Source: Sulfobacillus thermotolerans (GTDB lineage Bacteria; Bacillota; Sulfobacillia; Sulfobacillales; Sulfobacillaceae). Taken from it: a stretch of 64,000 nt of DNA. Positions 1,702-38,089 of this stretch are shown one piece after another. Below the pieces are notes generated by a model. It saw nothing but the letters and a program-made list of their open reading frames with translations. It was not told the origin of the DNA and searched no databases. A program made the translations under genes and the position numbers. The DNA lies in the NCBI GenBank assembly GCA_002951815.1, contig CP019454.1, positions 1,736,001-1,800,000 on the forward strand, written 5' to 3'. Within the stretch, counting starts at the first letter, position 1; each line of letters starts with the position of its first letter.

Positions 1702-1728
1702 AACCGTCCCAAAATGGGACGGTTTTTT
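1702..1728 (+). terminator. rho-independent terminator after paaD
   Basis: A perfect 10-base stem (1702-1711 with 1715-1724, AACCGTCCCA/TGGGACGGTT) has a 3-base AAA loop and is followed by a run of T to 1728. It closes the paa operon and separates it from the secretion-like locus. Confidence 0.93.
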
Positions 1729-1855: not shown

Positions 1856-2089
1856 ATGCCAACGGCCCACGTACTGTCCTTGATTACCAAATTAACAAGT
1901 GTCTTGGTCGACATCGCTGGGGGACTGTTTTCATTAGTGATGGTCTATGGCGGAATACGGTTTATGGTGGCACAAAGTCCGCGCTCGGTGCAAGCGGCCA
2001 AAGAATTAATGACGCGGGCAGCTGGCGGTTTGATTTTAATTTTATTGGTTGATGTAATACGGCAGGTTATCCAGTATGCGGCTAGCTGA
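1856..2089 (+). CDS. small two-helix membrane protein, VirB2/TrbC pilin-like
   Basis: A 77-residue hydrophobic protein with two predicted membrane segments (about residues 15-36 and 52-70) separated by a short charged loop, QSPRSVQAAKELMTRAA. This is the layout of VirB2/TrbC-type pilins and related small membrane proteins of type IV secretion systems. No signal peptidase site is obvious. It opens a run of secretion-like genes and overlaps the next one by 14 bases. The start is ATG 1856, preceded by GGGGAGGGA. The function is inferred from topology and neighbours (VirB3- and VirB4-like), since sequence alone is weak in this family. Confidence 0.55.
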   Translation: MPTAHVLSLITKLTSVLVDIAGGLFSLVMVYGGIRFMVAQSPRSVQAAKELMTRAAGGLILILLVDVIRQVIQYAAS

Positions 2090-2879
2090 TCCCTCCGCTT
2101 TGGTGAAAAGCAGTGTGTTAAAAGGCGTATTATCATGGGTGGCCAAAACGCTCGACAGCACACTGATTCAAGTGAGTCACGTAGTCTTTATGCATGTTGT
2201 TTTTCGTCCTTTCCAGCTATCGTCCACGGCCATGCAAGTCTATGGTGTCAGCCGCAGTTTGGCTATCTCCGCGAGTGCGGCATTTTTGATGTGGGCCATT
2301 ATTCAAGTGCAGTGGCCTGAATTGCGAGTGGGGCCATGGATGTCAACTCCAGTTATTACGGTGCACCGGGCGGTGACACAAGCTTTGTGGGCCATCACGG
2401 CTATACCGGTCGTACGCTTGCTTCTAAATCTCAATAACGCGGTGGTGAGAGCTTTAGACACGCCGGCAACCAGCATGGGATCACCATCTTTTGGGTCTTT
2501 GGGTGTGGTAACAGATCCCGTAGCTGCTGTGCTGATATTCTTGGCGGTCTTGGTCTTGATGGTGCTGTTAGGCGTTTATTATGGAGTCCGAAGTGTGGAA
2601 ATTGTTGTCTTAATGGCGCTCATTCCGTGGTTTGCCTTAGTGTGGATGGCCCATCCTGGCAGTCTGGTGTTACAAAAGTTGACGAAGGAGCTCATCGTGG
2701 CCATCTTTATACAGAGTCTTCATGCGTTGATGTTTTATTTCTTTCTCCATGTCACGCAAGGGGCCGGAAGCACTGTGCCCGGACAATTAGCAGAAATCGG
2801 GATCTTGTGGTATATGCTCAAGCTTCCTCAGCAACTGCGGCGTATGGTGGGTGCTGTGGGGCCAGGAGGTGTCGCGTAG
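2076..2879 (+). CDS. polytopic membrane protein, VirB6/TrbL-like
   Basis: A 267-residue integral membrane protein with about six hydrophobic segments. One long pair around residues 145-190 carries VLIFLAVLVLMVLLGVYYG, and a Trp/Pro-rich turn (LIPWFALVWM) follows. VirB6/TrbL proteins are inner-membrane channel components of type IV secretion systems with the same size and topology, and this gene sits between VirB2-like and VirB3-like genes as expected. The start overlaps the previous gene. The call rests on topology and gene order. Confidence 0.55.
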   Translation: MRLADPSALVKSSVLKGVLSWVAKTLDSTLIQVSHVVFMHVVFRPFQLSSTAMQVYGVSRSLAISASAAFLMWAIIQVQWPELRVGPWMSTPVITVHRAVTQALWAITAIPVVRLLLNLNNAVVRALDTPATSMGSPSFGSLGVVTDPVAAVLIFLAVLVLMVLLGVYYGVRSVEIVVLMALIPWFALVWMAHPGSLVLQKLTKELIVAIFIQSLHALMFYFFLHVTQGAGSTVPGQLAEIGILWYMLKLPQQLRRMVGAVGPGGVA

Positions 2880-2883
2880 TTTC

Positions 2884-3171
2884 ATGGCGCCATCCTCATC
2901 ATCTATCGTTTCACGGCCTTTATCCAAAAATCCCCCGCTTATTTGGGGCATGACAGTAAAAGACCTTATGTGGCCCGTATTAAGTCTGGCACTAGACGCC
3001 ATCATCTGGCGTCACGATCCCCGCGGCGGTTTTGTCGAAGTGCTTGTCCTCACCGCGTGTGCCGCATTGGGAATGGCTTTGGGGATCGTGCGCGTGCATG
3101 GTCGTTCTATTCCTTCTTGGCTTCTTGTTATTCTCCTGTTTTATTTGCACCCGCGTCTCTATTTGCCTTGA
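2884..3171 (+). CDS. VirB3/PrgI-like membrane protein
   Basis: A 95-residue protein with a short polar N-terminus (SRPLSKNPPLIWGMTVKDL) and two to three membrane segments. The arrangement resembles VirB3 and the PrgI family, which sit immediately upstream of VirB4 ATPases in Gram-positive conjugation loci. It does so here too. ATG 2884 is 13 bases after AGGAGGT (2864-2870); the frame is open further upstream to GTG 2851, but that would overlap the previous gene by 29 bases. Confidence 0.6.
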   Translation: MAPSSSSIVSRPLSKNPPLIWGMTVKDLMWPVLSLALDAIIWRHDPRGGFVEVLVLTACAALGMALGIVRVHGRSIPSWLLVILLFYLHPRLYLP

Positions 3172-3201
3172 ATCCCTGCCTTGCGGAAAGGAACGATGGC
3201 G

Positions 3202-3783
3202 ATGGATATTTTGATAAACAAGTTATTTCCTATTCAAGCTATTGGTCCGGGGCTTTGTTTACTTCACAAAAATCGCTATGTTGCTGTGTTGGAGGCTATT
3301 CCCGTAAATTTTGCGATGCGTTCTGACGTTGACCAGGAACGTATGGTATCCGGTTATGCCAACTTCTTAAATGGGCTAAGCTTTCCCGTGCAAATTTTTG
3401 TCCGGTCCGAGACGTTGCGCGTGAATGATTATCTGGCAGACCTCGTAGACCAAACCACTCAGATGGAGCCTTCATTGCGCCCAGCTCTAGACGATTACCT
3501 CCAGTTTATAAAGGAATCGGTCACGGTGCATCGCCTTATTAAACGCCATTTCTACTTGGTGTTGTCATGGATATCAAACGATTTCCGAAAACCATTAGGA
3601 ACAGGAGAACCGTTGTGGGACGAAGCGGCGCAAGAATTATTACGACGTCAAGAACTCATTGCTCAAGGGTTAATGGCATTGGGGATTCGCGTCAACACCT
3701 TGGATCAGGCAATGATGCTCAAGTTTTTACACGCGAGTTTTGGGCGGGAACAGCCCAGCACGGAGCTGGCGCCATGGAGCTGA
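3202..3783 (+). CDS. VirB4-like ATPase, N-terminal part (split gene)
   Basis: 193 residues resembling the N-terminal TraC/CagE-type domain of VirB4 ATPases: an opening LFPIQAIGPG, a central DQERMVSGYANFLNGLSFPV, and a helical region ending MLKFLHASFGREQPS. It has no nucleotide-binding motif; that lies in the next gene. The start is taken at ATG 3202, 9 bases after AAAGGA; ATG 3196 is closer to it. The last bases overlap the next start in ATGGAGCTGA, in the -1 frame. This could be a natural two-gene split with coupled translation or a frameshifted single gene. Confidence 0.72.
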   Translation: MDILINKLFPIQAIGPGLCLLHKNRYVAVLEAIPVNFAMRSDVDQERMVSGYANFLNGLSFPVQIFVRSETLRVNDYLADLVDQTTQMEPSLRPALDDYLQFIKESVTVHRLIKRHFYLVLSWISNDFRKPLGTGEPLWDEAAQELLRRQELIAQGLMALGIRVNTLDQAMMLKFLHASFGREQPSTELAPWS

Positions 3784-5459
3784 AACACAAACGGCACCGG
3801 CGTGTATTCGGGCCATTTGAAGGCATTTGGCCTGATTATTTGCAGGTCTTTCCCAAACAATTGGCGGTGGGGGACCGCATGGTCCGCTCTTTTGTGGTCG
3901 TGGATTACCCGCGCCACGTCCAACGGGGATGGTTTGAACCCTTGCTGCGCTTTCCTTACCCTATGACGATGGCCATATACCAGGCGCCATTACCGCCGCA
4001 AGTGGTGATGCGTTCTATGCACCGACATTTGCTCTGGAATCGGGGCATCGACGGGGCAAATCAAGCTAGTGGCCATCTACGCGATCCGGAAATGACGGCA
4101 TCCATTGAAGATGCGGAGCGCATTCGCCTGAAAATTGCCCAAGGCGATGCGCGGGTGCTCGATACGAGCTTGCATCTGACCCTATGGGCTTCGAGTTTGG
4201 AGGAGCTGGATGAAGCGACGGCGCTTCTCATCAGTTTAGCACAGAGTATGCTGTTGGTAATTCGCCCGCTTCACTTTCAACACCTGAATGGGATGAAGTG
4301 GACCCTTCCTATCGGCGAGTATGCGCCCGATGTTCGGGAAATGGAAACGGACGCGTGGGCAACCTTATTTCCTCTGGTATCCGAAGAAATTTTTCATCCG
4401 CGTGGCAATTTGTGGGGAATGAATGGGCAAAACCATTCCCTGATTTTAGTGGATCGCTTCAGTATGCCGTCTCCCCATTCGATTACTATCGCCTGGTCAG
4501 GGGCGGGAAAGAGCTACGCGGCGAAATTGGAAGCGATCCGCGCCAGGTATCGACATTTGCCCGTCTATATCGTGGATCCCGAAGGGGAATACAGTCCATT
4601 GGAACAAGCGGGCGCCTCAATTTGGCGTATTGGAGACCCTAAGACCCCCCAATTTCCGTTTGACCCTTGCGCCATTTCCTATGACGAGCCGGAAGGCCAT
4701 TGGGAACGCGAGGCTGACTTTATCATCCGTTTTTTGTCGCGACTCATGCCAGAAGAGGCATCACAAATCAAGACGGTCATGTGGCCCTTGCTATGGCAAT
4801 GTCGGCCACAGGCCACACGCAACGCGACTTGGCAATTCAATGCGCCACCTTTGGACCTTTTGCACTTGTTGCCGCAGGTTAGGGCCGTGGATGAAGCCTT
4901 TGCGCGACAACTGCAAACGGCTCTAGAACGGTGGAAACTCTTGGTGGGTTCAGGACCGACACAGGCCGGGAACCCGGATTTTCAAGTCTTTGATCTCAGC
5001 CGCCTCACGCCTTTAATGAAAAGTGCGGCATATCTTGCGCTTACGGAGTGGATTGCCAGGCAGACACACCAAAAACAACGACGACTCGTGATTTTTGATG
5101 AAGCTTGGCATTTATTGAATGAGAAAGAGACAGCGGGATATCTCGAAGAATTGTTTCGGCGTGCGCGTAAATGGGGAACCGCTTTGTCGCTGATTACGCA
5201 AGACATTAACGATTTTGTCCAGAGCCGCGCGGCAGAAGTGTGTCTTCGGAACGCGCCCATTGTGCTCCTTCTGAAACAGCATCCCGAAAGCTTGGCGCAA
5301 TTGGCGACACAACTGCGCCTGCATGAGGGCGAAATGATGCGCATTGCGACGGCCGGACGCGGAGAGGGAATTTTAATGGTCGGAGACGATCACGTCCCGA
5401 TCAAGATCAATGCCTCACCGGCCGAGCATGCACTGATAGGCGGACAATACCGGAGATAG
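3774..5459 (+). CDS. VirB4-like ATPase, motor domain (split gene)
   Basis: 561 residues carrying the ATPase part of VirB4. The Walker A motif is AWSGAGKS at residues 240-247, Walker B is RLVIFDEAW with Asp442 and Glu443, and a downstream SLITQDINDF matches the conserved sensor region. VirB4 proteins energise substrate transfer and pilus assembly at the inner membrane in type IV secretion. ATG 3774 has GGAG 8 bases upstream, inside the end of the preceding gene, so translation is probably coupled. Together the two products total about 750 residues, the usual size of one VirB4. No relaxase or VirD4 coupling protein is visible nearby. Confidence 0.85.
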   Translation: MELKHKRHRRVFGPFEGIWPDYLQVFPKQLAVGDRMVRSFVVVDYPRHVQRGWFEPLLRFPYPMTMAIYQAPLPPQVVMRSMHRHLLWNRGIDGANQASGHLRDPEMTASIEDAERIRLKIAQGDARVLDTSLHLTLWASSLEELDEATALLISLAQSMLLVIRPLHFQHLNGMKWTLPIGEYAPDVREMETDAWATLFPLVSEEIFHPRGNLWGMNGQNHSLILVDRFSMPSPHSITIAWSGAGKSYAAKLEAIRARYRHLPVYIVDPEGEYSPLEQAGASIWRIGDPKTPQFPFDPCAISYDEPEGHWEREADFIIRFLSRLMPEEASQIKTVMWPLLWQCRPQATRNATWQFNAPPLDLLHLLPQVRAVDEAFARQLQTALERWKLLVGSGPTQAGNPDFQVFDLSRLTPLMKSAAYLALTEWIARQTHQKQRRLVIFDEAWHLLNEKETAGYLEELFRRARKWGTALSLITQDINDFVQSRAAEVCLRNAPIVLLLKQHPESLAQLATQLRLHEGEMMRIATAGRGEGILMVGDDHVPIKINASPAEHALIGGQYRR

Positions 5460-5476
5460 AAGGGGGAAGAGTAGCC

Positions 5477-6016
5477 ATGGGATTGAAAAACATATCATTG
5501 TCAAGGCCCGCGGCATTAGCAATGGCTGTTGCGGGTGCGGTTTATGCTGGTTTAAGCCTTGTCCCGCTGTTAAAACCCGCTCCCCTTATTCCCGTGGCCA
5601 ATAAAAATTTGGCGGCCGGCACGTATTTGCAGCGCTCAGATATCGTGTGGGTATCGGCCAATAACTCACGGCCGGTTGTGGTGCAAAAATATTTAGCCGT
5701 GGGGGTGCGTAAAGGTCAAGTGCTATCGGCGGCAATGCTGACGGCGAGACCCTCCACTCACCGAGGATTTTTGGTGTCCATTGCAGGCAATGTCCCGCCC
5801 GTTCAAGTAGGACAAGAAGTGGAAATATTTATTATAAGTCAATCCGGGCACCTGTGGCAATTGGGACCGGTTATGGTGTTTAAAGCGGCGTCTGGTGCTA
5901 GCCTTACCGGTACGGCTGGGAGCCCACTCATAGTCGAGATGAATGCCAAGCAGGCCGCGGAGTATGAAGAGGCGAGTCTTCATGGGACCGTCTCTGTGGT
6001 AGGACTGCAACCATGA
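5477..6016 (+). CDS. SAF-domain protein, CpaB/RcpC-like
   Basis: A 179-residue protein with an N-terminal membrane anchor (residues 10-30) and a SAF-like domain: PVANKNLAAGTYLQRSDIVW and then VGVRKGQVLSAAML. This is the hallmark of CpaB/RcpC, which stabilise the Tad/Flp pilus secretin in Gram-negatives and also occur in Gram-positive Tad loci. It is shorter than many CpaB proteins. It lies 17 bases after the VirB4-like gene and overlaps the next gene by ATGA, so it belongs to the same transcription unit. Confidence 0.75.
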   Translation: MGLKNISLSRPAALAMAVAGAVYAGLSLVPLLKPAPLIPVANKNLAAGTYLQRSDIVWVSANNSRPVVVQKYLAVGVRKGQVLSAAMLTARPSTHRGFLVSIAGNVPPVQVGQEVEIFIISQSGHLWQLGPVMVFKAASGASLTGTAGSPLIVEMNAKQAAEYEEASLHGTVSVVGLQP

Positions 6017-6960
6017 TTGTCATCGGCGTGGGTCATGCAGGGGTAGAACGCTTCGTTCAGCAAAAAATGGCGCAAGCGGCCTATACGGATGACGTGGTCA
6101 TTATTCATACATGGGATCAATTGTCTTCGCATTTGAAACAGGCTCACAAGGTGTTAATAGGCGATCGGTTGTTGCGTGACGTGCCGCTCCCAGCGTTGAC
6201 GGAGCTCTTACAATCCTATCCCCATATCGAGTGGCTGCTTTGGACAGCCGAAAACTCGGTGTGGACGGCGCTTAATGGGGGGGTAGAGATCTGGACAGGG
6301 GAGTTGACACCAGAGAAACTCGAGGGGTGGATTCAACACACAACGTCAAAGGGAAGTGCTACACTCCGTACCCACTGGTTATTATGGTCACCTAGTGGTT
6401 GCTATGACCGAGTTCTATCGATTGCGTTATTAACCCACAAGATGCGCCAGATGCATAAAATCGGGACGTGGATTGATCTTGATTGGACGCATAGTTTGCT
6501 CACGTCTTGGTGGAACCCACAAGGCGCAGGACATGAAGCCTTTCCTTATGCACGGTTGACGCGGCAAAAGGCCGATTGGGGATATATTGCGCCTGCACCG
6601 TTGCCGTGGATGCCGGTGCTGTTTCAACCAGATGTCAGAGATATTGAACGCATGTTGCGTACAGTTCACGGATGGCAAGGATGGGATATTGGGGTGGATT
6701 TACGTCCGCTAAGCGTAGGGGTTGTCGCTCAATCGGTCGATCAAGCCGTGATACATATCTCCAGCGGGCTTAGACAACCCTTAGAACAGGGGTTGCAGCT
6801 CTTACGTTCGATGAATCCTCGTCTCGAGTTCATTGCCACAGGACCTGACCCTAACAATCTGTCGAGAAAACTGGGATTACCGTCTCTGGACGCCGATGCT
6901 TCAACCGATACCGGTTTGCGGAGGCTATTTAAGCGTCGGCACCGGAAGAATTCTCATTGA
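6013..6960 (+). CDS. CpaE/TadZ-like protein lacking a P-loop
   Basis: 315 residues. The N-terminal part (1-110) has alternating hydrophobic strands like the receiver-like domain of CpaE/TadZ. The C-terminal part resembles the ParA/MinD fold, but where the ATP-binding loop is expected (residues 123-140, LLWSPSGCYDRVLSIALL) the glycine-rich GKT motif is missing. CpaE/TadZ proteins localise Tad pili, and some members have degenerate ATP sites. The assignment depends on this position match and on the preceding CpaB-like gene, so it is moderate. The 3' end overlaps the convergent padR-like gene by 32 bases. Confidence 0.5.
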   Translation: MIVIGVGHAGVERFVQQKMAQAAYTDDVVIIHTWDQLSSHLKQAHKVLIGDRLLRDVPLPALTELLQSYPHIEWLLWTAENSVWTALNGGVEIWTGELTPEKLEGWIQHTTSKGSATLRTHWLLWSPSGCYDRVLSIALLTHKMRQMHKIGTWIDLDWTHSLLTSWWNPQGAGHEAFPYARLTRQKADWGYIAPAPLPWMPVLFQPDVRDIERMLRTVHGWQGWDIGVDLRPLSVGVVAQSVDQAVIHISSGLRQPLEQGLQLLRSMNPRLEFIATGPDPNNLSRKLGLPSLDADASTDTGLRRLFKRRHRKNSH

Positions 6961-25439: not shown

Positions 25440-25580
25440 AGTCTGATCATCGTTAATCAATTGATCAAACGGAGCCACCTTCCTGTGTCATCATGCCACC
25501 GCTTCTTAGGGCCATTGGCCGGTCGTCCACGGGCGGGCACTCCACAGGCTGTCACCGAGCAGGTCTGCCGTCAGGCAGAC
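25440..25580 (-). ncRNA. putative omega RNA / right end of IS607-type element 1
   Basis: Downstream of tnpB on the minus strand the DNA is GC-rich and structured. One perfect hairpin (GTCTGCC 25563-25569 with GGCAGAC 25574-25580) overlaps the tnpB stop. In IS605/IS607 elements the tnpB 3' end and the flank to the element end encode the guide (omega/reRNA). Boundaries are not visible because IS607 elements lack terminal inverted repeats. Confidence 0.4.
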
Positions 25581-26758
25581 ACGGGTGAGGAGCTCCTCAC
25601 CGAACTCTCGGCCACGTTTCGCAAATTGATCGCCGCATTGATGTCGCGGTCGTGGTGTGTGTGACATTCTGGGCACGTCCACTCCCGCATAGCGAGCGGC
25701 ATTTTCGGCATTTTGTATCCACACGCGGAACACGTTTTGCTGCTCGGATACCAACGGCTCACGATGACCACCGTTTTCCCGCATTGGGCCGCTTTGTATG
25801 CGAGTTGCCGACGGAATTCCCCAAAGCTCATATCAGCAATCGCCCGGGCGAGAGGATGATTTTTGAGCATCCCGGCGACGTTCAGGTCCTCGATGGCAAT
25901 GACATCGAAGCGCTGCACGAGATCGGTGGTCAGTTGGTGTAACGCATCCGCCCGGATATTCGCAATCCGCGCATGGCGTCGGGCCATGCGCCGCTGCGTC
26001 TTTCGCATATTCTGGGACAAGGGCATGGGCATCCCTTTCGGGGTGGGCTGGCCGGGCTGAAGCCCGGCGCGGACTTTGGCGACTTCCATCTGGCGACTGA
26101 ATTGTTTCGATAACCGCCGAAGCTGTGCCAAGGCGTCCGCATAGGCTTTCGGTCCCACGATCTTCTCTCCGGTCGAGAGCGTCGCCAACGCCGACACGCC
26201 CAAATCCACGCCGACTACCGCTTGGCTTTCGCGGCGGACACTGGGGGGATCGGGAAGTTCGACGGTGACGCTCAAAAACCAGCGATCAGCGGTCCGCGAC
26301 ACGGTGCCTGCTACCACTGTGCCGATAAATCGCAACGGTTCGTGCATGCGCACCCAGCCTAATTTGGGCATATGCACTTTTTGCCCTTTGACCGTGAATG
26401 GGTCGTTGGTGAGCGTAAAGCTGTCGTGTCGGCCCTTTTTCTTAAACGTGGGATACTCGGCGATCCCCGCAAAGAAATTCTTGAACGCTTGACCCAAGTG
26501 CATAATCGCCATCTGGGGGGCGTTCTTGGTAACCTCCAGCATCCAGGGGAAGGCGTCGCGCTTGAGTGCATTGAGTTGACGCCGCAGAGCTGCTTCGGTC
26601 GGCTTGGGCAACGTAGGATCGGCTTTCCATGCGTCGAACTGTTGTTGCCACTGATCCAAGGCCCCATTGTACGCGAAACGGGCCGTCCCGGCGGCCTTGC
26701 GGAAATACGTCTCTTGAACGTTATTCGGGTCGAGCGCAATCTTATGGGCCAGAATCAT
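25571..26758 (-). CDS. tnpB: TnpB RNA-guided nuclease of IS607-type element
   Basis: 395 residues with all RuvC catalytic residues in place: Asp185 (GVDLGV), Glu290 (IAIEDLNV) and Asp372 (HDRDINAA). The zinc finger has Cys343, Cys346, Cys362 and Cys365. TnpB is an omega-RNA-guided DNA endonuclease that keeps the transposon at its donor site. ATG 26758 has GAGGAGG 7 bases upstream and overlaps the tnpA stop by ATGA. The gene looks intact. Confidence 0.95.
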   Translation of the reverse strand: MILAHKIALDPNNVQETYFRKAAGTARFAYNGALDQWQQQFDAWKADPTLPKPTEAALRRQLNALKRDAFPWMLEVTKNAPQMAIMHLGQAFKNFFAGIAEYPTFKKKGRHDSFTLTNDPFTVKGQKVHMPKLGWVRMHEPLRFIGTVVAGTVSRTADRWFLSVTVELPDPPSVRRESQAVVGVDLGVSALATLSTGEKIVGPKAYADALAQLRRLSKQFSRQMEVAKVRAGLQPGQPTPKGMPMPLSQNMRKTQRRMARRHARIANIRADALHQLTTDLVQRFDVIAIEDLNVAGMLKNHPLARAIADMSFGEFRRQLAYKAAQCGKTVVIVSRWYPSSKTCSACGYKMPKMPLAMREWTCPECHTHHDRDINAAINLRNVAESSVRSSSPVSA

Positions 26759-27384
26759 GATGACGCCTCCTCCACGGCGTGTCTCACGCCGTCGAGCAAT
26801 TTTTGGTTCTTGCGGGAGCGGCTGCCGTAGAGCCGAGCCGAAAACACGGTGATTATTTCGAGGACGTCTTGAGCCAGCTCTTCCTCAAAGGTCGTGTCCT
26901 CGCCTTGATTGAGAATCACCACCTCCACCTGCTTGGCTTCGCAGATCGCAAAGACGAGCTCCGCCCCAAAGCGCAAGAGACGGTCCTTATGGGTCACAAC
27001 CAGCCGACCGACCCGGTTGGCGAGGATGTCATTTAAGAGGCGCTTGAGACCCTTTTTGTGATAATTCATCCCGGATCCGAGATCCGCCACGACCTCAAAG
27101 GTCCACCCTTGACGGGCACAATAGATCTCCAGCACGTGCTTTTGCCGCTCCAGATCGTCTTTCTGGTCGTGGCTCGATACGCGGGCATAGGCGACGGTTT
27201 TGCGGCGCGGGCTGCGTCGGTGAAACTGGTCAGGTCGCAACCGGGCCAAGTCGTAACGCCGATACCCACCCGCTGTGCGTTCATCGGGCAACAACGTTCC
27301 TTCGTGTTCCCATCGACGTAACGTCGATGGGGTCACACCTAAAAATTCCGCCGCTTCACGAATGCCGACAAGTTTTCTATGCAT
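26755..27384 (-). CDS. tnpA: IS607-family serine transposase TnpA
   Basis: 209 residues. The N-terminal MerR-like helix-turn-helix (GIREAAEFLGVTPSTLRRWEHEG) is followed by a serine recombinase domain with catalytic Ser70 in AYARVSSHDQKDDL and the segments SGMNYHKKGLKRLL and VVTHKDRLLRFG. IS607 TnpA excises and inserts the element with little target specificity. ATG 27384 is used; the frame is open to 27399. A minus-strand TATAAT at 27392-27397 is so close that the mRNA may have almost no leader. Confidence 0.93.
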   Translation of the reverse strand: MHRKLVGIREAAEFLGVTPSTLRRWEHEGTLLPDERTAGGYRRYDLARLRPDQFHRRSPRRKTVAYARVSSHDQKDDLERQKHVLEIYCARQGWTFEVVADLGSGMNYHKKGLKRLLNDILANRVGRLVVTHKDRLLRFGAELVFAICEAKQVEVVILNQGEDTTFEEELAQDVLEIITVFSARLYGSRSRKNQKLLDGVRHAVEEASS

Positions 27385-27664
27385 ACCTAAATTATACAAT
27401 AATGGGTAACCATAGGTAAAATTTTAGCAAACTGTTAAAACCCTTTAGTTTGGTTACTCTCTTCGTTGGAATGACTCCATGGCGCTCTCGAGTATCCTTT
27501 TTTATCCAATCCCATAAAATGGTTTTAACATGAGATCTTCATCATGGGCTTCTTGACCTGTGAAATTACGACATAATTTGTCGAATCATAAAAGAGGACT
27601 CTTGTGATATGCGGCGAAGATTGTAGTAATGGATTGGGTTGCGGTTCCAAGGAGGGGACACGTC

Positions 27665-28390
27665 ATGATCTCAAAAGATGCTGCCCAGCAGGCGCTGGTC
27701 GCGGCTCTTCGGCGTGGTGATATTCGCGCCGTCTTTCAACCCATATGGACAATACAAGGGCAGTGTGTGGGTTTTGAGGCGTTATCGCGCTTCGCTAATG
27801 GTTGTCCTCCGGACAGAGTGTGGGATTATGCTGAACGTGTTCATCAGGTGATGCGTCTTGATCGGATAGCGATTCAACAAGCCGTACGTTCTGCATACGG
27901 ATTGATGGGGAAATTGTTTCTGAACATTCGCGCAGTCCATCTGACAGCCGCTTCAACCCTTCCTTTTTTAGGCTCCTCCAATCGCATTATCTGGGAAATC
28001 ACGGAAAGCCAAGTCGCAGATCAAGATGGAGCATCAGGCAGCCTCTGGCTCCGGCAACAGGGTTATGCTTTGGCCTTGGATGATGCGGGCTCTGGGTGTT
28101 CAACGCCTCATCGCTTAGACTGGTTGCGGCCCCAAATCGTAAAAATTGATTCGAACGTGGTGCAAGAATGGGCTCAAGGATCGCCCGAAGGGCTGCGTCG
28201 CTGGATTGCAGCTGCGCGGGCTATTCACGCGGTGGTTGTGGCTGAAGGTGTGGAAGAACGCGCGTGGCTTGAAGGCTTGGCGCGTGAAGGAATTCAGGCC
28301 GTGCAAGGATATGCTTTGGGTCGCCCTGCATCGGCCCCTTATTGGCGTGCGCATACGTCGTACGACCAGGGCCAGGTGGGCCTTTCATGA
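27665..28390 (+). CDS. EAL-domain protein (c-di-GMP phosphodiesterase type)
   Basis: 241 residues, a stand-alone EAL domain: [20 protein letters not shown] with Glu38-Ala-Leu, [36 protein letters not shown] and QGYALGRP. Most metal- and substrate-binding residues appear present, with DDAGSG in place of the usual DDFGTG, so activity against c-di-GMP is likely but unproven. ATG 27665 follows AAGGAGGGG by 7 bases. It overlaps the chemoreceptor gene (ATGA), linking c-di-GMP turnover to the chemosensory genes that follow. Confidence 0.9.
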
Positions 28391-30702
28391 TGAATCACAA
28401 GAAGCGAGATTCCCCAATCACTGTGGGGACCGGCCGACACGATGGAGGTTCTCAAACGAAGCCGACCGGCGTTTTAGAGATTTCATCTCATATTGACAAA
28501 GGCGGTGGAGCGAAGATGCCCAGGGAGGGTCGAGATACAACGTCACAGGATAACGCCGTACGAACGGATCGCAACAGCTGGTGGGGTTGGCTATGGGAGC
28601 GCTACTTACAATGGCCATTATCCAAAAAATTTGCGTGGCAACTTGGCGGAGCTATGGTCATGATTGCCATCATTGAGGTAACCAGCGTCACGCTTTTGCT
28701 GCTTGCCCACGTAAGAACACTCAATGGGATCGTCGGGCTGATTTTGGCTTTAGGTTTGATAGCGGAACTCAGCGGCATCGTAGCGTTATGGGCTAATGCG
28801 CGTTATGTCAGCGCATCGATTGCGATACAAATTGCCAGTATTCAGCGGGTCGTGTCTGGCGATTTGGAAACGACTCGGGAGGCGCCTTTGGGATATGATG
28901 AAGTGCGTAGTCTCTATGAAGCCGGTGAGACATTGGTTGAACGGCTGCGCGCGGTATTATATCGGGTCCTATATACGGGTGCTGCTTTGATGAGGCAAAC
29001 CGCTGCATCATCGGAGAGTGTTCGGCGCGTCAAAACGACCACGGGGCGCATTAGGCAACTCGTGACTGAGATGCGCCAAACGTCGTTAGACGACGGAGAA
29101 TCCTTGCGGATGGTCTCGAGCTCATTAGAAGAGTTAACGGTGGTCGCGGATCAGGTGGCGCAGGCGGCTGAGAGTCAGGCGCGCGAAGCCCATACAGCGA
29201 ATTTGGAGATGGCGGAATTGGCTTTGGCCGTGCAAGGTGCGGCACAAGCCCAAGTTAAAGGACAAGCTTTGGTAGCCGAATCGCAAGCGCGAATTGAGGG
29301 TGCGGTGCACTCTGTCAACCAAGCGTTAGATCAAATCGAGGCATTGCCGGATGCGATTGCGCGCAGCAATAAGGAAAACCAGGCGCTGGCGCAGCGTGTG
29401 CGGGAACTATCGCCGGTCGTGACGACAATTCAAGAAATCGCGCAACAGACGCAGATGTTGGCATTAAATGCGGCGATTGAGGCAGCGCGGGCAGGGGAAG
29501 CCGGCCGAGGATTTGCGGTCGTAGCAGAGTCGGTGAGGTCTTTGGCTGAGCAAAGTCTAGAGGCTGCTCATCAGACATCACACACCTTGACCGCCGTGAG
29601 TGAGGCGATTGAACAAGGGGCTCGACAAAGTGCAGGAATCGCTGATCGGGCTCTACAAGGGCAAAAAGTCCTTACAAGTGTGCGCCAAGAAATCATGGCT
29701 ATCCCCGAAGCTCTACACGACTTAACGGCGGCGTTGGCTGCGGTGGGTCAAGAAGTCCAGCAAGCCACATCGCTCGCGGACCGTGTGGCTCAAAAAGTGA
29801 CAAGTGAGGCAGCCGCTGCAGAACAATATGCCGCCGCTGTTGAAGAAATGACCGCGACGATTCAAGGTTTGCGAGGGACAGCACAAGACTTAACCAAGAC
29901 AGCACAAAGTAATTTGCAACGCACGGAATCTGTTCCCCATGAATTGGCCACGATTGCGCAAGAAATGGATATCAGTGTGGGGACTGTCGTGGCAATGAAT
30001 GATACTGTGCAGGATCTGCAAAATGTTCTGTCCGAGTGGCGTCTGGTCGGCACGCGAAAGCCTGTCAAATCCTACGTGTCAGCAATGCGCGCATGGCTTG
30101 GGGACGAGGCGGGGCGTATGTGCGACTCGTTGCAAAAGCAGGTGAATCTGGAGGATTTGACGTTTGATTATCGGCCGGTTTCACCAGGCGAGTTGCGCCA
30201 TTTATTTGATCCAGGGCCGGTGACGCAGTTTTCACCACCTAAATATAGCTGTGGATGGGACCATGCGGTGGATGTCATGTTGGCGCAATGGATGGAAACC
30301 CTGACACAACGGGTGCAGCAGCAATATCCTGGGGTCTTGCGTGTCACGTTTGTAGATGTAAACGGGTTTGTCATCGCAGAGCCCCGTGCGTTTGCCGCAG
30401 CGTTGACGGGCGATCCTCAAAAGGATCAGAAAAACTTAGTCAAACAGTGGTTGTATGATTCACCAGGATTAATGAGTTTAGTCCGTCATGCGGGCTTAAT
30501 CGATGACCTGTTGGATCAACGCCGACTAACGGCTCAAGACATTCGGTCTCACATGTTGCCGCCCGATTCGCATCCGTTTGATGTGTTGACGTATCGCCGC
30601 GTTACGGGCGATTTAATGTTAGACATTGCTGTACCTGTTTACCTTCATAACCTGTATGTGGGTGCGCTTGTTGGAGGAGGACCCACCGCGTCATTGTTTT
30701 AA
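28387..30702 (+). CDS. methyl-accepting chemotaxis protein with C-terminal sensor-like domain
   Basis: 771 residues. There are two adjacent membrane helices (about residues 75-135) without a large extracellular loop, then a long coiled-coil signalling domain with the hairpin tip [20 protein letters not shown] and [16 protein letters not shown]. About 190 extra residues follow. That tail (from about 580) has [15 protein letters not shown] and [22 protein letters not shown], resembling Cache/PAS ligand domains, but cytoplasmic. ATG 28387 overlaps the EAL stop; ATG 28516 with GGTGGAG upstream is a serious alternative, giving 728 residues. Confidence 0.9.
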
Positions 30703-30772
30703 GCGGGCACATAGGGTCGACAGCTAATCGCCGTCAATGAGAATGAGAAGAGATAGAGGAGGTTATTTGAAG

Positions 30773-31873
30773 ATGGAATCACCTATAAATTCCGAACGTC
30801 TGATGTCATTAAATGCACCGCTTGAGGTCATTTGCCAACTTCTTCCGGGTTTGCACATGTCGTATATGGATGACACGCAGTTAATCGTGGTTGATCATGC
30901 GATGCGCATCTTAGCGGTTGTTCCCGGCAAGCAAATCGATTTGGGTTTAAAAATTGGGGAGATAGCGCCTAGCGGAACGGTGAGTGAACGAGCCTTAAAG
31001 GCGGGACGGGTTCTCAAAGACGAGCGTGATGCGAGCGCGTTTGGGGTGCCCTATCAGTCGGTGGCGATCCCCATTATGCAAGACAATGAGGCGGTTGGGG
31101 TCCTGGCGGTCGTCACCTCCACGCAAGCGCGCCAAGCTATGCAATCCGCTGAACAAGATTTATGGCAGCACGCCGAACATTTAGCTGCGACGGCGGAAGA
31201 AACGCATGCGGCGGTTACACATTTAAAGGAAACATTTGACATGTTGGCGCGCCAAGCCTCTGTGATCCAAGACGGGATGGCCTCTACGGAACAATTTACG
31301 GATGCGGGAAGGCAAACCATTCAGTCGTTAACCGTCCACACGGAAACCTTGGGGAGCACGATGAAGGGGGTGGGCAGTGCGCGCGAAGCTTTGGAAGGAC
31401 AAGTGACGACAATTTCGCAATCGACCTCTTTGATTCAGGATATTGCGCGTCAAACCAATTTATTGGCGTTGAACGCAGCCATTGAAGCGGCTAGGGCGGG
31501 CGATGCGGGCCGAGGATTTGCGGTTGTGGCCGAGGAAGTGAAAAAGTTGTCAGAAGGGTCGCGTGATGCCACGCGTCACATTGAAGAGACGATTGCAGGC
31601 ATTGGATCCCGCCTTGTTGAACTAAGCCAAGCTGTCGCTGCGGCGCAGACGGCCCAAGCCGCCGAACACGAGATGAGCCAAAAGGTTTCCGCAAATTTCT
31701 TAGATATTGGTGCGGCAGTACGTGAGACAGCGCAGGCATTGCATGCGATCCATGACCAGATTCAGGCCGCAACGAGTGCCATTGAACAACTCACGGCGGC
31801 TGCGGCATTGACAGCTGAGCAAGCAACGCAAGTATCAGGATTGGCCACGCGACTTCGTACGCAAGGGCAATAA
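30773..31873 (+). CDS. soluble methyl-accepting chemotaxis protein
   Basis: 366 residues with no membrane helix. The N-terminal 125 residues form a PAS-like sensor ([32 protein letters not shown]), followed by a signalling domain with [20 protein letters not shown] and [16 protein letters not shown]. It would detect a cytoplasmic cue. ATG 30773 is 10 bases after AGAGGAGG; TTG 30767 is an in-frame alternative. It shares the signalling hairpin with the preceding receptor, so both could join one array. Confidence 0.92.
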
Positions 31874-31909
31874 ATTTATGACGAAAAATTCCAGAGGAGG
31901 CGTTAGAGA

Positions 31910-32362
31910 GTGGAGGAGCAATTGTTGACCGTACGGGTGGGATCGTATTTGTTTGGGGCACCCGTCACAGCTGTGACAGAAATTCTTTCGAACCTTTCTG
32001 TAACCCACATCCCCCAGACTCCGGAGCTTATTGCAGGAGTCGCGGTGGTCAGAGGACAACCCTTAGAGGTGTGGACCTTAGGAGCGCCTTTGGGCTTGCC
32101 GCCAAAAGACGTGGGTTTGGCTTTACGTTGGGAATCCTCTCGGGGGGTATCGTTGGTAGCGGTTGATATGGTCGAGAGTTTATGGACCCCTGGGCCCCCT
32201 TTGTCCCGCGATTTGTGGGAAAACTTGATTCCTCAAGCAGCCGCTCCGTGGGTGGTTGGGGCATACCGGATGGAGTCGGAGTGGCTCTGGGCGTTTGCTC
32301 CGGATTTGCCTGATCGCTTGCAAGCATCGGTTTTGGGGTCGGGCCGAGTCGCCACGGGCTAA
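31910..32362 (+). CDS. cheW: CheW-like coupling protein
   Basis: 150 residues matching CheW: LLTVRVGSYLFGAPVTAVTEIL, HIPQTPELIAGVAVVRGQPL, VDMVESLW. It links chemoreceptors to CheA. GTG 31910 has AGGAGG 10 bases upstream. The C-terminus is somewhat divergent, and the usual Arg/Glu receptor-contact residues cannot be judged by eye. It lies between the soluble receptor and CheA. Confidence 0.87.
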   Translation: MEEQLLTVRVGSYLFGAPVTAVTEILSNLSVTHIPQTPELIAGVAVVRGQPLEVWTLGAPLGLPPKDVGLALRWESSRGVSLVAVDMVESLWTPGPPLSRDLWENLIPQAAAPWVVGAYRMESEWLWAFAPDLPDRLQASVLGSGRVATG

Positions 32363-32408
32363 GGGATTGACCAAAGAGGGAACTATTTGAAAGAGGAGGC
32401 GGGCAATC

Positions 32409-35138
32409 ATGCGGTTTTCAGAGATTCAGTGGGATTCTCCTGAAGAACGGGACTTATTTATGCAAGAAGCAACAGAATTGTTGGCATCGTTGGAAGAGGG
32501 GGCTTTGATGGCTTCACCGCCTCTTGATGCATTGTTTCGCGCGGCGCATACCCTGAAAGGGTCTGGAGGCATGGTCGGGCTTACCGATTGGGTAACCGCA
32601 GCGCATGACCTTGAGGACGCGTTAGACAAGGTTCGTCAAGGCGCCCGGCAGTTTGATGAAGATCTGCAGAAAGAAACCTTGCATACTGTGGATGTGTTGC
32701 GGGCGGAATTGGCGGGCGCTGCACCGATGTCCTCCGGTGACGAGACGGTGGTTTGGGAACTGACATGGGACAAGAATGCGCCCATGCTGGGAGTCAGGGC
32801 GTACCAGGCTTGGCAATCCGTGTCAGCCGCTTTTCCTGGCACCCAAAGTGATCCGCCAGAAGCGGAGCTCTCTGGGTGGACCGGCACCACAAGTCGGCTG
32901 CGGGTGCCAAAATCTGCTGAGGCGAGCAAAGTCAGGGCATTGCTTGCCGAGATCGACAATTTAGTCAGTGTGGACGTCGTGCGGGGACCTGAGGGGGCAA
33001 GCGAGGATGCCAAAGCGGTTCCGGCTGTCAGCACGTCTGCCCCAGTGACCGGGTCGGCGCCTCGTGAAGGGACGATACGCATTGGTGCCGCGTCGTTGGA
33101 ACGGATTTTAGAAGGTTTGGGCGAGCTGTTATTAGATCAAGGCCAGCTCGAGCACCATTTTGGCGGCAGCGCTGATCAAGCGACGCGCAGTGTTTTAGAC
33201 CATATGCGCCGCCGTGCCTTGGATTTACAAGACCTCACCTTGCGTGCGCGCATGTTGCCTTTGGATACATTGTTTCGGCAGTATCCCCGAGCCATTCACG
33301 ATATGGCAAAACAATTAGACAAGAAAATTCGTCTGGAGACCCAAGGGGGCGAGACCGAGCTAGATCGATTGGTCATGGACCGTTTGCATGAACCCCTCTT
33401 GCATTTATTGCGTAATGCGTGTGACCACGGTATTGAATCCGGAGAGGTTCGCGTGGCCCATGGCAAGCCGGAAATGGGAACGGTGCGACTCGCTGCATAC
33501 GCGGCCCAGGGTCATGTGCATGTAAGGGTCGAGGACGACGGGGGAGGGATTGAGTGGGACCGGTTGCGGGAAAAAGCAGTGCGCCAAGGGTGGATGAGTG
33601 CGGAAGAAGCGTTGCATGCATCAACAGACCGGCTATCAGAGCTCTTATTCCGGCCAGGGGTGTCAACGGCCGAAAAAGTAACGGATCTCTCCGGCCGGGG
33701 AGTGGGCTTGGATGTCGTTAAAGCCTTTTTGGACGAAATTCACGGCACGATTACGGTGGAGAGTGACCTCCATAAGGGTACAGCGTTTCATCTAGAATTG
33801 CCCATGACGATGGCAATTATGACGGCCTTGATTGTTGATGCGGGCCCGTGGACGATAGGATTGCCGATCTTGACGGTTGAACGCATTGATGTGGCGCAAC
33901 AAGCGGGGATTAGCACCGTATTAGGGCAGACCGCCGTTCCCGACGATGATGCGCCAATTCCTGTTTACTCCCTTGCGCAGTTGCTAGACCCGACAGCTGC
34001 CCATGAGGACACCTATCTCATCCGCGTTAAAGATGGCCGCACACAAGCCGCTTTAGCGGTGGATGAGGTGCGGGGGCAGCAGGAAGTGGTCGTCAAGCCG
34101 GTGGCGACACTTGCCTCGGTTACACCGTGGCTGAGTGGGGTCGCTTTATTGGGCGATGGGCGCTTAGCGCTCATGATAGACGTACGGCGTTTGGTTCCGA
34201 GTACGCGGACAGACCGGGAACGGGTTCATGATGACGGCATTTTACGGGCTGGCTCTAATCAAATGGAGCTCTTAGTATTTCAATTGAGTGATGGTCAGCG
34301 GTACGGCATCAATGTGTATAAAACGCGCGAAGTGTTGAGGGCGGCGGAGGTTACGCGGGTACCAGAACAACATGGCTGGCTGTATGGCTTCTTGCGATTG
34401 CGTGGACAAACGGTGCCCGTGGTGAGTCTGCACCGAGCCTTGGGACTCCCTGAGCCAGGGCCCGATGCAGTGATGCTGATGACCGAGTTTAATCAAAGTG
34501 TGCAGGCGTTTCCTGTCGATATGGTGGACCGCATGGTGCGCGTCAGCTGGGACCGGGTAGAACCATTGCCACCTGTTCTCGATACCGCTGTTAGTGGGCG
34601 GCGGCGCTTTACTGGACTTATCGATCATCCGGAACTAGGTCCCATTCAATTGATAGACTTTGAGCAGATTTTAGAGCAAGTGGCCCCGCCAGAATATCCA
34701 CCGGTGAAGGCCGACATCCATAGTCCTATCACGGGAAAAACAGTCTGGTTAGCCGATGATTCGCGGGTTGCCTTAAATCAAGTGGAGAAGGCATTACATC
34801 CGCTAGGACTCCAAGTACGGACCTTTGCGGATGGAGAAGCGTTGTGGGAAGCAGTGGAAAAAGCCGAATCCTTGCCGGCCCTGTTTGTGCTTGACGTGGA
34901 GATGCCGCGTCTTGATGGATATACGTTGACACAGCGGTTGAAACATGAAGCGCGCACGCATGAGATTCCGATTTTATTGCATACCTCGTTGTCTGGGCAC
35001 TGGCATGCTGACCGGGCTCAACAAGTCGAGGCCGATGCCATTGTGACGAAATTTGATCCGGCGATGCTTGCGCGTACGGTAGCAGGTTTGTTGTTGCCCG
35101 TTTCTGCGCACCATGAGAGCGTGCCTGCGTTATCGTAA
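32409..35138 (+). CDS. cheA: CheA histidine kinase fused to CheV-like CheW-REC module
   Basis: 909 residues. HPt domain has phospho-acceptor His47 in AAHTLKGSGG. A variable region runs to about 215, followed by a dimerisation helix pair. The HATPase has its N box HLLRNACDHGIESG near 330-345, DDGGGIEW and DLSGRGVGLDVVKAF. A first CheW domain spans about 465-600, and a second CheW domain about 620-755 starts NQMELLVFQLSDGQRYGI. The receiver domain has ADDSR, Asp829 (LFVLDVEMPRLDG) and Lys near 881 (VTKFDP). The last two equal CheV in order, so this looks like CheA plus CheV in one chain. No CheY, CheR or CheB is nearby. Confidence 0.94.
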   Translation: MRFSEIQWDSPEERDLFMQEATELLASLEEGALMASPPLDALFRAAHTLKGSGGMVGLTDWVTAAHDLEDALDKVRQGARQFDEDLQKETLHTVDVLRAELAGAAPMSSGDETVVWELTWDKNAPMLGVRAYQAWQSVSAAFPGTQSDPPEAELSGWTGTTSRLRVPKSAEASKVRALLAEIDNLVSVDVVRGPEGASEDAKAVPAVSTSAPVTGSAPREGTIRIGAASLERILEGLGELLLDQGQLEHHFGGSADQATRSVLDHMRRRALDLQDLTLRARMLPLDTLFRQYPRAIHDMAKQLDKKIRLETQGGETELDRLVMDRLHEPLLHLLRNACDHGIESGEVRVAHGKPEMGTVRLAAYAAQGHVHVRVEDDGGGIEWDRLREKAVRQGWMSAEEALHASTDRLSELLFRPGVSTAEKVTDLSGRGVGLDVVKAFLDEIHGTITVESDLHKGTAFHLELPMTMAIMTALIVDAGPWTIGLPILTVERIDVAQQAGISTVLGQTAVPDDDAPIPVYSLAQLLDPTAAHEDTYLIRVKDGRTQAALAVDEVRGQQEVVVKPVATLASVTPWLSGVALLGDGRLALMIDVRRLVPSTRTDRERVHDDGILRAGSNQMELLVFQLSDGQRYGINVYKTREVLRAAEVTRVPEQHGWLYGFLRLRGQTVPVVSLHRALGLPEPGPDAVMLMTEFNQSVQAFPVDMVDRMVRVSWDRVEPLPPVLDTAVSGRRRFTGLIDHPELGPIQLIDFEQILEQVAPPEYPPVKADIHSPITGKTVWLADDSRVALNQVEKALHPLGLQVRTFADGEALWEAVEKAESLPALFVLDVEMPRLDGYTLTQRLKHEARTHEIPILLHTSLSGHWHADRAQQVEADAIVTKFDPAMLARTVAGLLLPVSAHHESVPALS

Positions 35139-35302: not shown

Positions 35303-35527
35303 GGAATCCGATCCCTCAACCAATTCCTCGGCACGGCCTCAATCCGTTTCCGTGCGTCCCTACGGTTTACATAATATATCGTTCTGTCCATTGTGTCAAG
35401 AATTTTTCTGCGCCGGATGGGGTTGGATCAGCGGATGGCGAGTTCTTCGCATCTGAGCCTATATTGAACAGTATTTCTGTCATAAGTCTCCTTTATGCTA
35501 AGGATATTGCGAAAGGAGGCAAAAATC
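35303..35527. other. intergenic stretch before the tad genes
   Basis: With the hairpins at 35163-35302, this completes a 389-base gap between cheA and cpaF-like genes. It ends in GAAAGGAGG (35511-35519), the RBS of the next gene. No other feature is recognised. The two terminator-like hairpins suggest the tad genes are transcribed separately. Confidence 0.6.
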
Positions 35528-36730
35528 GTGGGAACGTATTCATGGAAACCTGAAGAATCGTTTGCATCGCTCTGGCCGCATGGGGCCGCCGAAGAACATA
35601 CGCAAATGGGGCAACGTGTCGACCAATGGCAACAAGTGATACAAAATCGCTTTCCTGAGCTGTTGCGTCATTTAGTGTGGGACCGCGATCGTCTTAATCA
35701 GCTTGAGGAAGCTGTGGATCAAGTGATTGCGGATGACGGGTTAAATGTCGCGGCGGTGGCATTATATCGACGGTCCTTGTTAAATCGCTTGACGGGTTTG
35801 GGACCTCTTGACCAGTTGTTGACGGATGACCATGTCACCGAGATTATGGTGAATGGTCCACAGCAAATTTATTGTGAGCGGGATGGCCGCATTATGCTCG
35901 TCAATCAACAATTTGCCGACCCCGATGAGGTAACGTTGTTGGCGCAGCGTTTAGCCAGTCGGGCAGGACGCGTTCTCAATACGGAATCTCCTCTTTGTGA
36001 TGCGCAGCTCGCGGATGGTTCACGCATTCATTGCGTGCTGCCGCCCGTGGCAGAAAAACCTACTATCACCATTCGCCGGGCTCGTGCTGAACCTCTGGTG
36101 CTAACGGACCTTATTGAGGCGGGCAGTTTGTCTCACGCATTATGGCAGGACTTGTCTCAATATATTGAGGAACGCCGCAATATTATTATTGCAGGCGGGG
36201 CTGGTTCTGGTAAGACGTCACTGTTAAGGTTGTTGGCCTCCCACATTGATCCAGCACAGCGCGTTGTCACCATCGAAGACGTGCGTGAGTTGAATTTAAC
36301 GCATTCTCATACGGTCAGCCTTGAAGCCACTCGTGCGCATGATGTGCATACCTTACTGGTCAATGCGCTGCGTATGCGGCCGGATCGCATTATTGTTGGT
36401 GAGGTCCGGGGCGCGGAAGCCTTAGAACTTATCGAGGCGATGTCGACGGGACATTATGGAAGTATTTCGACCGTGCATGCCCAATCGGGAGGCATGGCCA
36501 CCGTCTTACGATTAGCGCGGATGTGCGCCAGAAATCAGCTAGGGATTCCTTTTGAGGAATTGCTTGGCCAAATTCAGGACACGCTTGACGTCATTGTGTA
36601 TGTACGCAGAGGTCCCGATGGGGTTCGGCGCATTGAATCGGTGCAGCAACCAACACGTGAGGGGATGCGTGTGCTGTGGGTCTATCGTCCCGACGCCGGG
36701 TTTGTCAAAGTAGGTGAACAAGATGGATAG
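35528..36730 (+). CDS. CpaF/TadA-type secretion ATPase
   Basis: 400 residues of the type II/IV secretion ATPase family, CpaF branch. The segments are GLGPLDQLLTDDHVTEIMVNGP, LADGSRIHCVLPPVA, Walker A GGAGSGKTS near 222-230, VTIEDVRELNL, RMRPDRIIVGEVRGAEAL (Walker B region) and TGHYGSISTVHAQS. It powers assembly of Tad/Flp pili at the inner membrane. GTG 35528 is chosen because AAAGGAGG lies 8 bases before it; the frame is open from 35495. It overlaps the TadB-like gene. Confidence 0.94.
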   Translation: MGTYSWKPEESFASLWPHGAAEEHTQMGQRVDQWQQVIQNRFPELLRHLVWDRDRLNQLEEAVDQVIADDGLNVAAVALYRRSLLNRLTGLGPLDQLLTDDHVTEIMVNGPQQIYCERDGRIMLVNQQFADPDEVTLLAQRLASRAGRVLNTESPLCDAQLADGSRIHCVLPPVAEKPTITIRRARAEPLVLTDLIEAGSLSHALWQDLSQYIEERRNIIIAGGAGSGKTSLLRLLASHIDPAQRVVTIEDVRELNLTHSHTVSLEATRAHDVHTLLVNALRMRPDRIIVGEVRGAEALELIEAMSTGHYGSISTVHAQSGGMATVLRLARMCARNQLGIPFEELLGQIQDTLDVIVYVRRGPDGVRRIESVQQPTREGMRVLWVYRPDAGFVKVGEQDG

Positions 36731-37430
36731 TCTGGCGCTGCTCAGTGCCGGGATGCTGGGACTCGCCGTGTATGCCTGGCATGCCCGAAGAGTCTTTCGC
36801 GTAATTTTTCCACTCAGCCTTGCGTTATTATGGGTGCGCCCTCATGTGTTGACCTTGTCCGTATTGTTGGCTGCGGCAGGTTTCGAAGTGTTTTTAACAA
36901 GCCGACGTATGCGCGCGGGACGTGATCTTGCAGAACAGGAGACCGAAGTTTTTCTGCAACGGCTAAGCCGGACCTTAAGAAACCGGGGGAGTTTATCACA
37001 GGCATTGGATGATGTGGCGCGTAGTGACAGCCGCATCGTGCCGCATCCCGATCCCCACCGGGTGCTAATGGAATTACGTGAGCGGTGGCACACGGAAGCA
37101 ATGTTGATTGTGAGCCTAGCTGCCGGTTTGTCGAATCGTTACGGAGGCTCCTTGGCACCGATTATCGATAATGTGATTCAACATATGGGCCGCGCGCGTC
37201 GTCAACGTTTTGGGCGGCGGCTCGAAGAAACGGCGTTGGAGTCAACGGTTATGGTTCTCGCTGTTGTGCCCTATGGTCTTTTGCTGATTTTTCGCATGGC
37301 GTTGCCTAGCTTCTATAATATTTTGACCCAGACTACGGCAGGGCATATGGTGATTGGCATGTTGGGTATGAGTACGGCGGGGGTCTTGATGGGGTTATCT
37401 TGGTACATCCGCAAGGAGGAATCCTCATGA
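36723..37430 (+). CDS. TadB-like pilus platform protein
   Basis: A 235-residue membrane protein with N-terminal helices, a cytoplasmic GspF-like domain (QRLSRTLRNRGSLSQALDDVA, LAAGLSNRYGGSLAPIIDNV) and C-terminal membrane helices. The GspF-type repeat and its position after CpaF identify it as TadB. ATG 36723 has AGGTG 8 bases upstream. It ends ATGA on the TadC-like gene. Confidence 0.85.
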   Translation: MDSLALLSAGMLGLAVYAWHARRVFRVIFPLSLALLWVRPHVLTLSVLLAAAGFEVFLTSRRMRAGRDLAEQETEVFLQRLSRTLRNRGSLSQALDDVARSDSRIVPHPDPHRVLMELRERWHTEAMLIVSLAAGLSNRYGGSLAPIIDNVIQHMGRARRQRFGRRLEETALESTVMVLAVVPYGLLLIFRMALPSFYNILTQTTAGHMVIGMLGMSTAGVLMGLSWYIRKEESS

Positions 37431-38089
37431 TCCTCGTGGCGGCCTTATGTAGTGGTTTGGCGATATATCTATGGACGGCCCACCAGGTGTCATGGAACGA
37501 GGCCGGCTGGATGAGTGTAGGGTTATGGCCCGCTTGGCTCATTCACCCTCAGATGAACACCGGACTGGCGCTAGGAGCTATGACGTTGGGGTTTGTCCTC
37601 TCTCGTCGCCCTTCACGTCCCCAGGGAACGGCCATACGCCGCAAACGCCGTCTATTAGTGCGGTTTTGGCGTATTGTTTCGTTTTTTCTTACCGCAGGCA
37701 TGACGTTTTGGCAGGCCATCGATCAAGCGTTAGCGGTGGTGCCGGAGTTAGATGGCGCAATTCGGGAGTTGGTGCAAACCATGCTGCGGTCACGGTTTGA
37801 CCTGTCGGCTATGGAGGTATTTCGCAGGGAATATCCGGGTCCCGAGTCCGATGTGATAGCCACCATGCTACTGCATGGTTATCACCACGGAATCGCCCCA
37901 GATGATGCCATGAAGCAAGCGAGCGAGATGGAAGAACAATTGTCCCTCGAAGAAGCCTTGCGCAGACAATCTCACCCCATGTTACTTACTATTCTTCCGG
38001 CATTGCTGTTGCTAAACGTTTTAGCCTTGTTTGGGGCTCCTATGGGCTTGTTAGCTCTGCATAGTTGGACTGTTGTAAGAGGAGGATAG
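37427..38089 (+). CDS. TadC-like pilus platform protein
   Basis: A 220-residue membrane protein with three hydrophobic regions around a cytoplasmic domain of GspF type (LTAGMTFWQAIDQALAVVPE, LLHGYHHGIAPDDAMKQASE, LSLEEALRRQ). It would pair with TadB as the inner-membrane platform. ATG 37427 has AAGGAGG upstream. No prepilin, prepilin peptidase or TadE/F-like gene follows, so the locus is incomplete within this window. Confidence 0.8.
   Translation: MILVAALCSGLAIYLWTAHQVSWNEAGWMSVGLWPAWLIHPQMNTGLALGAMTLGFVLSRRPSRPQGTAIRRKRRLLVRFWRIVSFFLTAGMTFWQAIDQALAVVPELDGAIRELVQTMLRSRFDLSAMEVFRREYPGPESDVIATMLLHGYHHGIAPDDAMKQASEMEEQLSLEEALRRQSHPMLLTILPALLLLNVLALFGAPMGLLALHSWTVVRGG

Follow-up and report, generated by a model that had tools for sequence, protein, structure and literature searches.

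An order of acid-loving bacteria very probably carries a chromosomally fixed hybrid of VirB-type secretion genes and Tad pilus genes, which together would form a machine of at least ten genes that includes a full Tad motor. We describe it from a window of 64,000 nucleotides (G000:C1:1736001-1800000) of the 3,317,203-base chromosome of Sulfobacillus thermotolerans Kr1, where an earlier note had recognized a locus built from these two families, a description that our analysis upholds. The reading that we favor, at about even chances and from sequence comparison, is a conjugation-derived machine that would have been domesticated for DNA transfer between cells.

Between window positions 1856 and 6960, one strand (+) encodes VirB2-, VirB6-, VirB3-, VirB4- (as two genes), CpaB- and CpaE-like proteins, tightly packed and with the order and identities that the earlier note had given. 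The VirB2-like pilin (1856..2089) has 77 amino acids with two hydrophobic segments, matches PF18895 T4SS_pilin over cut-off (E 1.1e-7), and keeps its length of 77 amino acids in 29/29 loci at a mean column identity of 75% (22 loci). It is followed by a VirB6/TrbL-like polytopic membrane protein (2076..2879; PF19597 TrbL_4, E 1.8e-6, over cut-off) that is kept in 29 genomes and by a VirB3/PrgI-like protein (2851..3171) with matches under cut-off to PrgI (E 0.12) and to the SCO6880 family (E 0.018), the putative VirB3 identity being supported by position and conservation. The N-part of VirB4 (about 3196..3783; NF045971 positions 13-171, E 1.9e-6), with a ribosome-binding site (GGAAAGGA) ahead of an ATG at 3196/3202, and the C-terminal ATPase (3774..5459; NF045971 positions 191-735, E 1e-61, below the equivalog cut-off) correspond to consecutive stretches of a single VirB4 model. 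The C-part also matches a solved VirB4 structure (4ag5, E 7e-36), and its Walker A (WSGxGKS) and Walker B motifs are conserved. A sequencing error or frameshift behind the split can be ruled out since relatives share it—indeed, every relative locus that holds both parts shows it. The unit closes with a CpaB/RcpC-like SAF protein with one N-terminal transmembrane helix (5477..6016) and a CpaE/TadZ-like protein (6013..6960).

Neighboring genes overlap at virB2/virB6, at virB6/virB3, at the two virB4 genes (10 nt, the C-part gene beginning ahead of the stop of the N-part gene), and at cpaB/cpaE (4 nt). An inverted repeat that resembles a terminator, its right arm being rich in T (about 1702..1724, +), separates the unit from upstream paa genes, and a consensus promoter scan gave no match on the + strand. 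Characteristic components of monoderm conjugative type IV secretion systems (T4SSs)—a VirB4 ATPase, a VirB6/TrbL channel protein, and a VirB2-type pilin—are all present; neither a VirB8-like protein nor a hydrolase of the cell wall could be recognized in the gene set.

Sequence-only searches of the PDB with alignments of CpaE, the SAF protein, the VirB4 N-part and VirB2 returned weak matches only, so that the assignment of the CpaE-like and SAF proteins was decided by structure prediction (AlphaFold2 models, compared using Foldseek and VIA). Among the structures in the PDB, RcpC of the Tad system matches the SAF model (mean pLDDT 85) best (9gzr; Foldseek E 2.4e-6, VIA Z 9.3); the rmsd is high, at 8.8 over 136 residues, so that the two domains are probably oriented differently. 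The CpaE-like model (mean pLDDT 85) combines an alpha/beta N domain with a ParA/MinD fold that matches ParA/MinD chains with Z up to 13.7; its P-loop is degenerate in Sulfobacillus, and the motifs GGVGTTT and VDADW are retained in distant relatives. A relationship of both proteins to Tad is thus supported by their predicted folds, and the concern that they might prove unrelated to it has not materialized. Another, distantly related genome of the phylum (G044, L198:6143-16596) also has a chromosomal VirB/Tad hybrid, with an M23 peptidase, TadE and TadG, and there the proteins in the same positions exceed curated cut-offs (RcpC 2.7e-11, AAA_31 1.3e-10, TadE 2.4e-9).

The earlier note was right about the seven genes and missed the rest of the locus, as genes for CpaF, TadB and TadC follow 28.5 kb downstream in the same window. 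The CpaF/TadA ATPase (35528..36730, +; PF00437, E 5e-45) is encoded in an open reading frame that opens at 35495 and probably starts at a GTG following AAAGGAGG. The next two genes encode a TadB-like platform protein (36714..37430, +; PF00482 T2SSF, E 1.8e-4, under cut-off, with family and position conserved) and a TadC-like platform protein (37400..38089, +; E 1e-66 to a tadC family compiled from relatives). The orthologues of these three genes directly follow cpaE in most other genera of the order, whereas the halves lie some 20-29 kb apart in Sulfobacillus, where a block of cobalamin genes separates them in those members that were inspected. An IS607-like element with a TnpB-like protein and a serine recombinase (named by reading the sequences) sits at the edge of this block (25571-27399). 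Directly upstream of cpaF, positions 27629-35138 encode an EAL protein, a methyl-accepting chemotaxis protein (MCP), a soluble MCP, CheW and a CheA-CheW-REC hybrid; these chemosensory genes were considered as parts of the machine and dropped, given that they are not found beside cpaF in the relatives inspected. No Flp pilin and no TadE/TadG were recognized in the hybrid locus. Kr1 also has a separate, standard-looking Tad locus (L178:1967-11071) with CpaB-, CpaE-, CpaF-, TadB/C- and TadE/G-like open reading frames, one protein of which has a Flp-type GQALVEYAL motif.

The seven genes stay together in relatives: Neighborhood comparison found their order unchanged at 29 of 30 loci, and the remaining one is cut by the end of a contig. 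An amino-acid permease and a thioesterase (both named by reading the sequences, with no family search) lie upstream in all five genomes compared. VirB4 identity to the window protein decreases with taxonomic distance: It is 59-71% within the genus, 41-53% within the family and 38-47% within the order. In phylogenetic trees, VirB4 forms one clade (100/100) that excludes the plasmid copies carried by the same genomes, and CpaF likewise forms one clade (100/100) that excludes both the plasmid copies and the genome's own standard Tad locus. The constant order, the common upstream neighbors, identities that fall with kinship, and the single clade apart from plasmid copies all argue for vertical inheritance. 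Mobility of the kind that defines integrative conjugative elements, with an integrase and a variable location, is not apparent: No integrase was noticed beside the locus, the five genomes compared share its neighbors, and divergence follows kinship. Judged by these genomic comparisons, this is a vertically inherited chromosomal locus and not a fragment of an ordinary integrative conjugative element, an outcome that the earlier note had named as one that would refute its reading. One complete genome of the order (G026; L063, L035) carries the VirB4/CpaF region a second time, about 11 kb off. A genome from another order (G038, L091:6332-13267) encodes VirB6, a fused VirB4, a SAF protein, a protein in the CpaE position, CpaF, TadB and TadC, with long branches that make its placement in the trees unsure.

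The reported lack of a relaxase, a coupling ATPase and a lytic transglycosylase holds for the cluster but not, in the case of the coupling ATPase, for the genome. Outside the locus, Kr1 encodes a conserved VirD4-type coupling ATPase (G000:C1:2667049-2668533; PF02534, E 3.9e-11, over cut-off), which has one close orthologue in 29 of the 33 genomes of the order, is also present in G038, and is absent from 7 genomes of the class without the hybrid. Five genomes of the order were checked for its neighbor, which is Replic_Relax-like in each of them (over the Pfam cut-off in 2). VirB4 identity correlates with that of the unlinked VirD4 (Spearman 0.93, n=26 genomes), as expected if both are passed on vertically, and this correlation alone does not demonstrate joint working; in our reading the unlinked VirD4 would serve the VirB/Tad machine. 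No relaxase was seen in the locus, and PF03432 was not found in the Kr1 genome by a search that also missed the relaxase that the authors of this genome reported from its plasmid region.

The distribution of the competence protein ComEC touches on what such a machine might do. None of the 33 genomes of the order yielded a ComEC, nor did G038 and G342, but the protein occurs in each of the 14 class genomes in which a test for the VirB4 was negative and in 282 of 299 genomes from the phylum as a whole. This absence rests on two clades and so would represent one or two events. A strict rule by which the hybrid replaces ComEC can be rejected: G044 has both, and neither was found in G136 and G317. 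In G405, where the hybrid was sought by the VirB4 N-part, this part and ComEC were both not found. A DprA above cut-off was found in 6 of the 33 genomes of the order, compared to 7 of 7 class genomes without the hybrid, and with DprA mostly gone from the order any DNA taken in would have to be recombined by other means. Kr1 itself encodes a DprA near a recombinase gene (L201:9947-10870).

We propose that VirB6 and VirB3 would form the base of a membrane channel powered by the split VirB4 with its N-part and ATPase part, while VirB2-like subunits may build a pilus or a tip. The CpaF ATPase on its TadB/TadC platform could assemble or work this extracellular part, with the ParA-like CpaE placing the Tad motor and CpaB spanning to the cell wall. 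The unlinked VirD4-type ATPase with its Replic_Relax neighbor would then feed DNA into the machine, and the cell would exchange chromosomal DNA with its neighbors similar to archaeal Ced plus Ups. That all parts belong to one machine, that its substrate is DNA, and in which direction transfer would run are points that we infer. On the second of these, the homologies, the coupling ATPase and the ComEC pattern leave us evenly divided as to whether the machine would move DNA.

Instead of DNA, the same parts might deliver proteins to neighboring cells or into the surroundings, as suggested for the T4SSs of Patescibacteria. These systems are chromosomal, mostly lack known relaxases and are thought to be non-conjugative (PMC12102498), and in a pattern scan of genome contigs, which is biased towards VirB4s carrying the motif used, the VirB4s from beyond the order that matched best belong to Patescibacteria loci where the protein is split in the same way. 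However, an unsystematic look noticed no effector-like genes beside the locus, and the co-conserved VirD4 adjoins Replic_Relax, a family linked to DNA, so that we consider such a secretion or contact machine, the main rival reading, less likely than DNA transfer. Still less probable seems a pilus for adhesion or twitching, built by the Tad motor from VirB2-like or Flp subunits for contact with minerals or cells and with no role in DNA transfer. Tad pili are known adhesins, the set of Tad motor genes is complete, and chemosensory genes adjoin cpaF in Kr1, yet the latter arrangement does not extend to the relatives inspected, the genome also holds its standard-looking Tad locus with a Flp-type pilin, and a pilus of this sort should have no need of VirB6, VirB3 and a conserved VirB4 ATPase.

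That the locus is a piece or a decaying remnant of an integrative conjugative element is barely conceivable to us. Related modules do occur on plasmids and ICE-like loci, but retention across the order, conserved catalytic motifs, common chromosomal neighbors and the lack of any integrase noticed beside the locus all speak against it. A machine domesticated from conjugation for DNA transfer remains our preferred reading. With an order-wide hybrid, a co-conserved coupling ATPase, and comEC not found, the question of whether organisms other than the archaea with Ced have domesticated a conjugation apparatus for DNA transfer becomes testable in cultivable bioleaching bacteria, and the locus suggests that a VirB channel can operate jointly with a Tad motor.

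The combination of VirB and Tad parts is not in itself unique, as plasmid-borne forms are already known. The Kr1 genome paper described a conjugation system on a plasmid-like region with homologues of T4SS and T2SS-like (CpaF, TadB/TadC) proteins as in the Sulfobacillus plasmids pL15 and pY0017 (PMC6803676). Like the chromosomal locus, these plasmids and the integrated plasmid region of Kr1 join T4SS parts with CpaF and TadB/TadC, but they are mobile and carry a relaxase, a coupling protein and a transglycosylase, and their VirB4 proteins form a separate clade with only about 25% identity to the chromosomal VirB4. A plasmid of the actinobacterium Embleya sp. NBC_00896 similarly encodes PrgI/VirB3, VirB4, VirD4 and Replic_Relax in a row and, 8 kb on, a SAF protein, CpaF, TadB, TadC and TadE, and of the VirD4 proteins compared, that of this plasmid matches the chromosomal VirD4 best. 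This module differs in lying on a linear plasmid, in its linked VirD4 and in the presence of TadE/TadG. A plasmid of C. acnes has been described to combine tad genes with VirB4 and FtsK-like proteins. In the open-licence literature searched, we found no published chromosomal VirB/Tad hybrid and no paper describing a VirB4/CpaE/SAF or VirB4/CpaF/TadB combination; Tad, TadA and CpaF likewise do not occur in a review of T4SSs from 2025.

For the Gram-positive Micrococcus luteus, the abstract of a previous study reports that Tad genes, which serve DNA uptake there, are required for transformation, and it describes no VirB channel. The chromosomal T4SSs of Patescibacteria share the split VirB4, pilin-like proteins and a usually unlinked VirD4 with the Kr1 locus, and among their loci (L132-L176) the same split VirB4 is accompanied by pilin-like genes in many. 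They differ in that no Tad genes except one CpaF-like match were found near VirB4 (45 loci). Non-conjugative roles have been argued for these systems, and the cultured example keeps ComEC (PMC12102498).

The closest functional parallel might be found in archaea, where the Ced and Ted systems are domesticated T4SSs for the exchange of chromosomal DNA of which the authors knew no example outside these archaea (PMC9905601). The Kr1 locus likewise has a chromosomally fixed set of VirB2-, VirB4- and VirB6-like genes as a T4SS derivative; the archaeal systems belong to extreme thermophiles and are partnered with a type IV pilus (Ups), and CedB/CedD divide the VirB4 N-domain between two proteins in a way that resembles the split VirB4. 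One weak partial match to CedB was seen (E 8e-6). Ups and Ced are separate operons, whereas the VirB and Tad genes of the Kr1 type are joined in a single unit, and VirB3 and a coupling ATPase are present in addition. It is a tentative and still rather doubtful possibility that the order fixed this VirB/Tad hybrid as its own DNA-exchange machine, lost ComEC-dependent transformation, and thereby holds a separately arisen bacterial counterpart of archaeal Ced and Ups.
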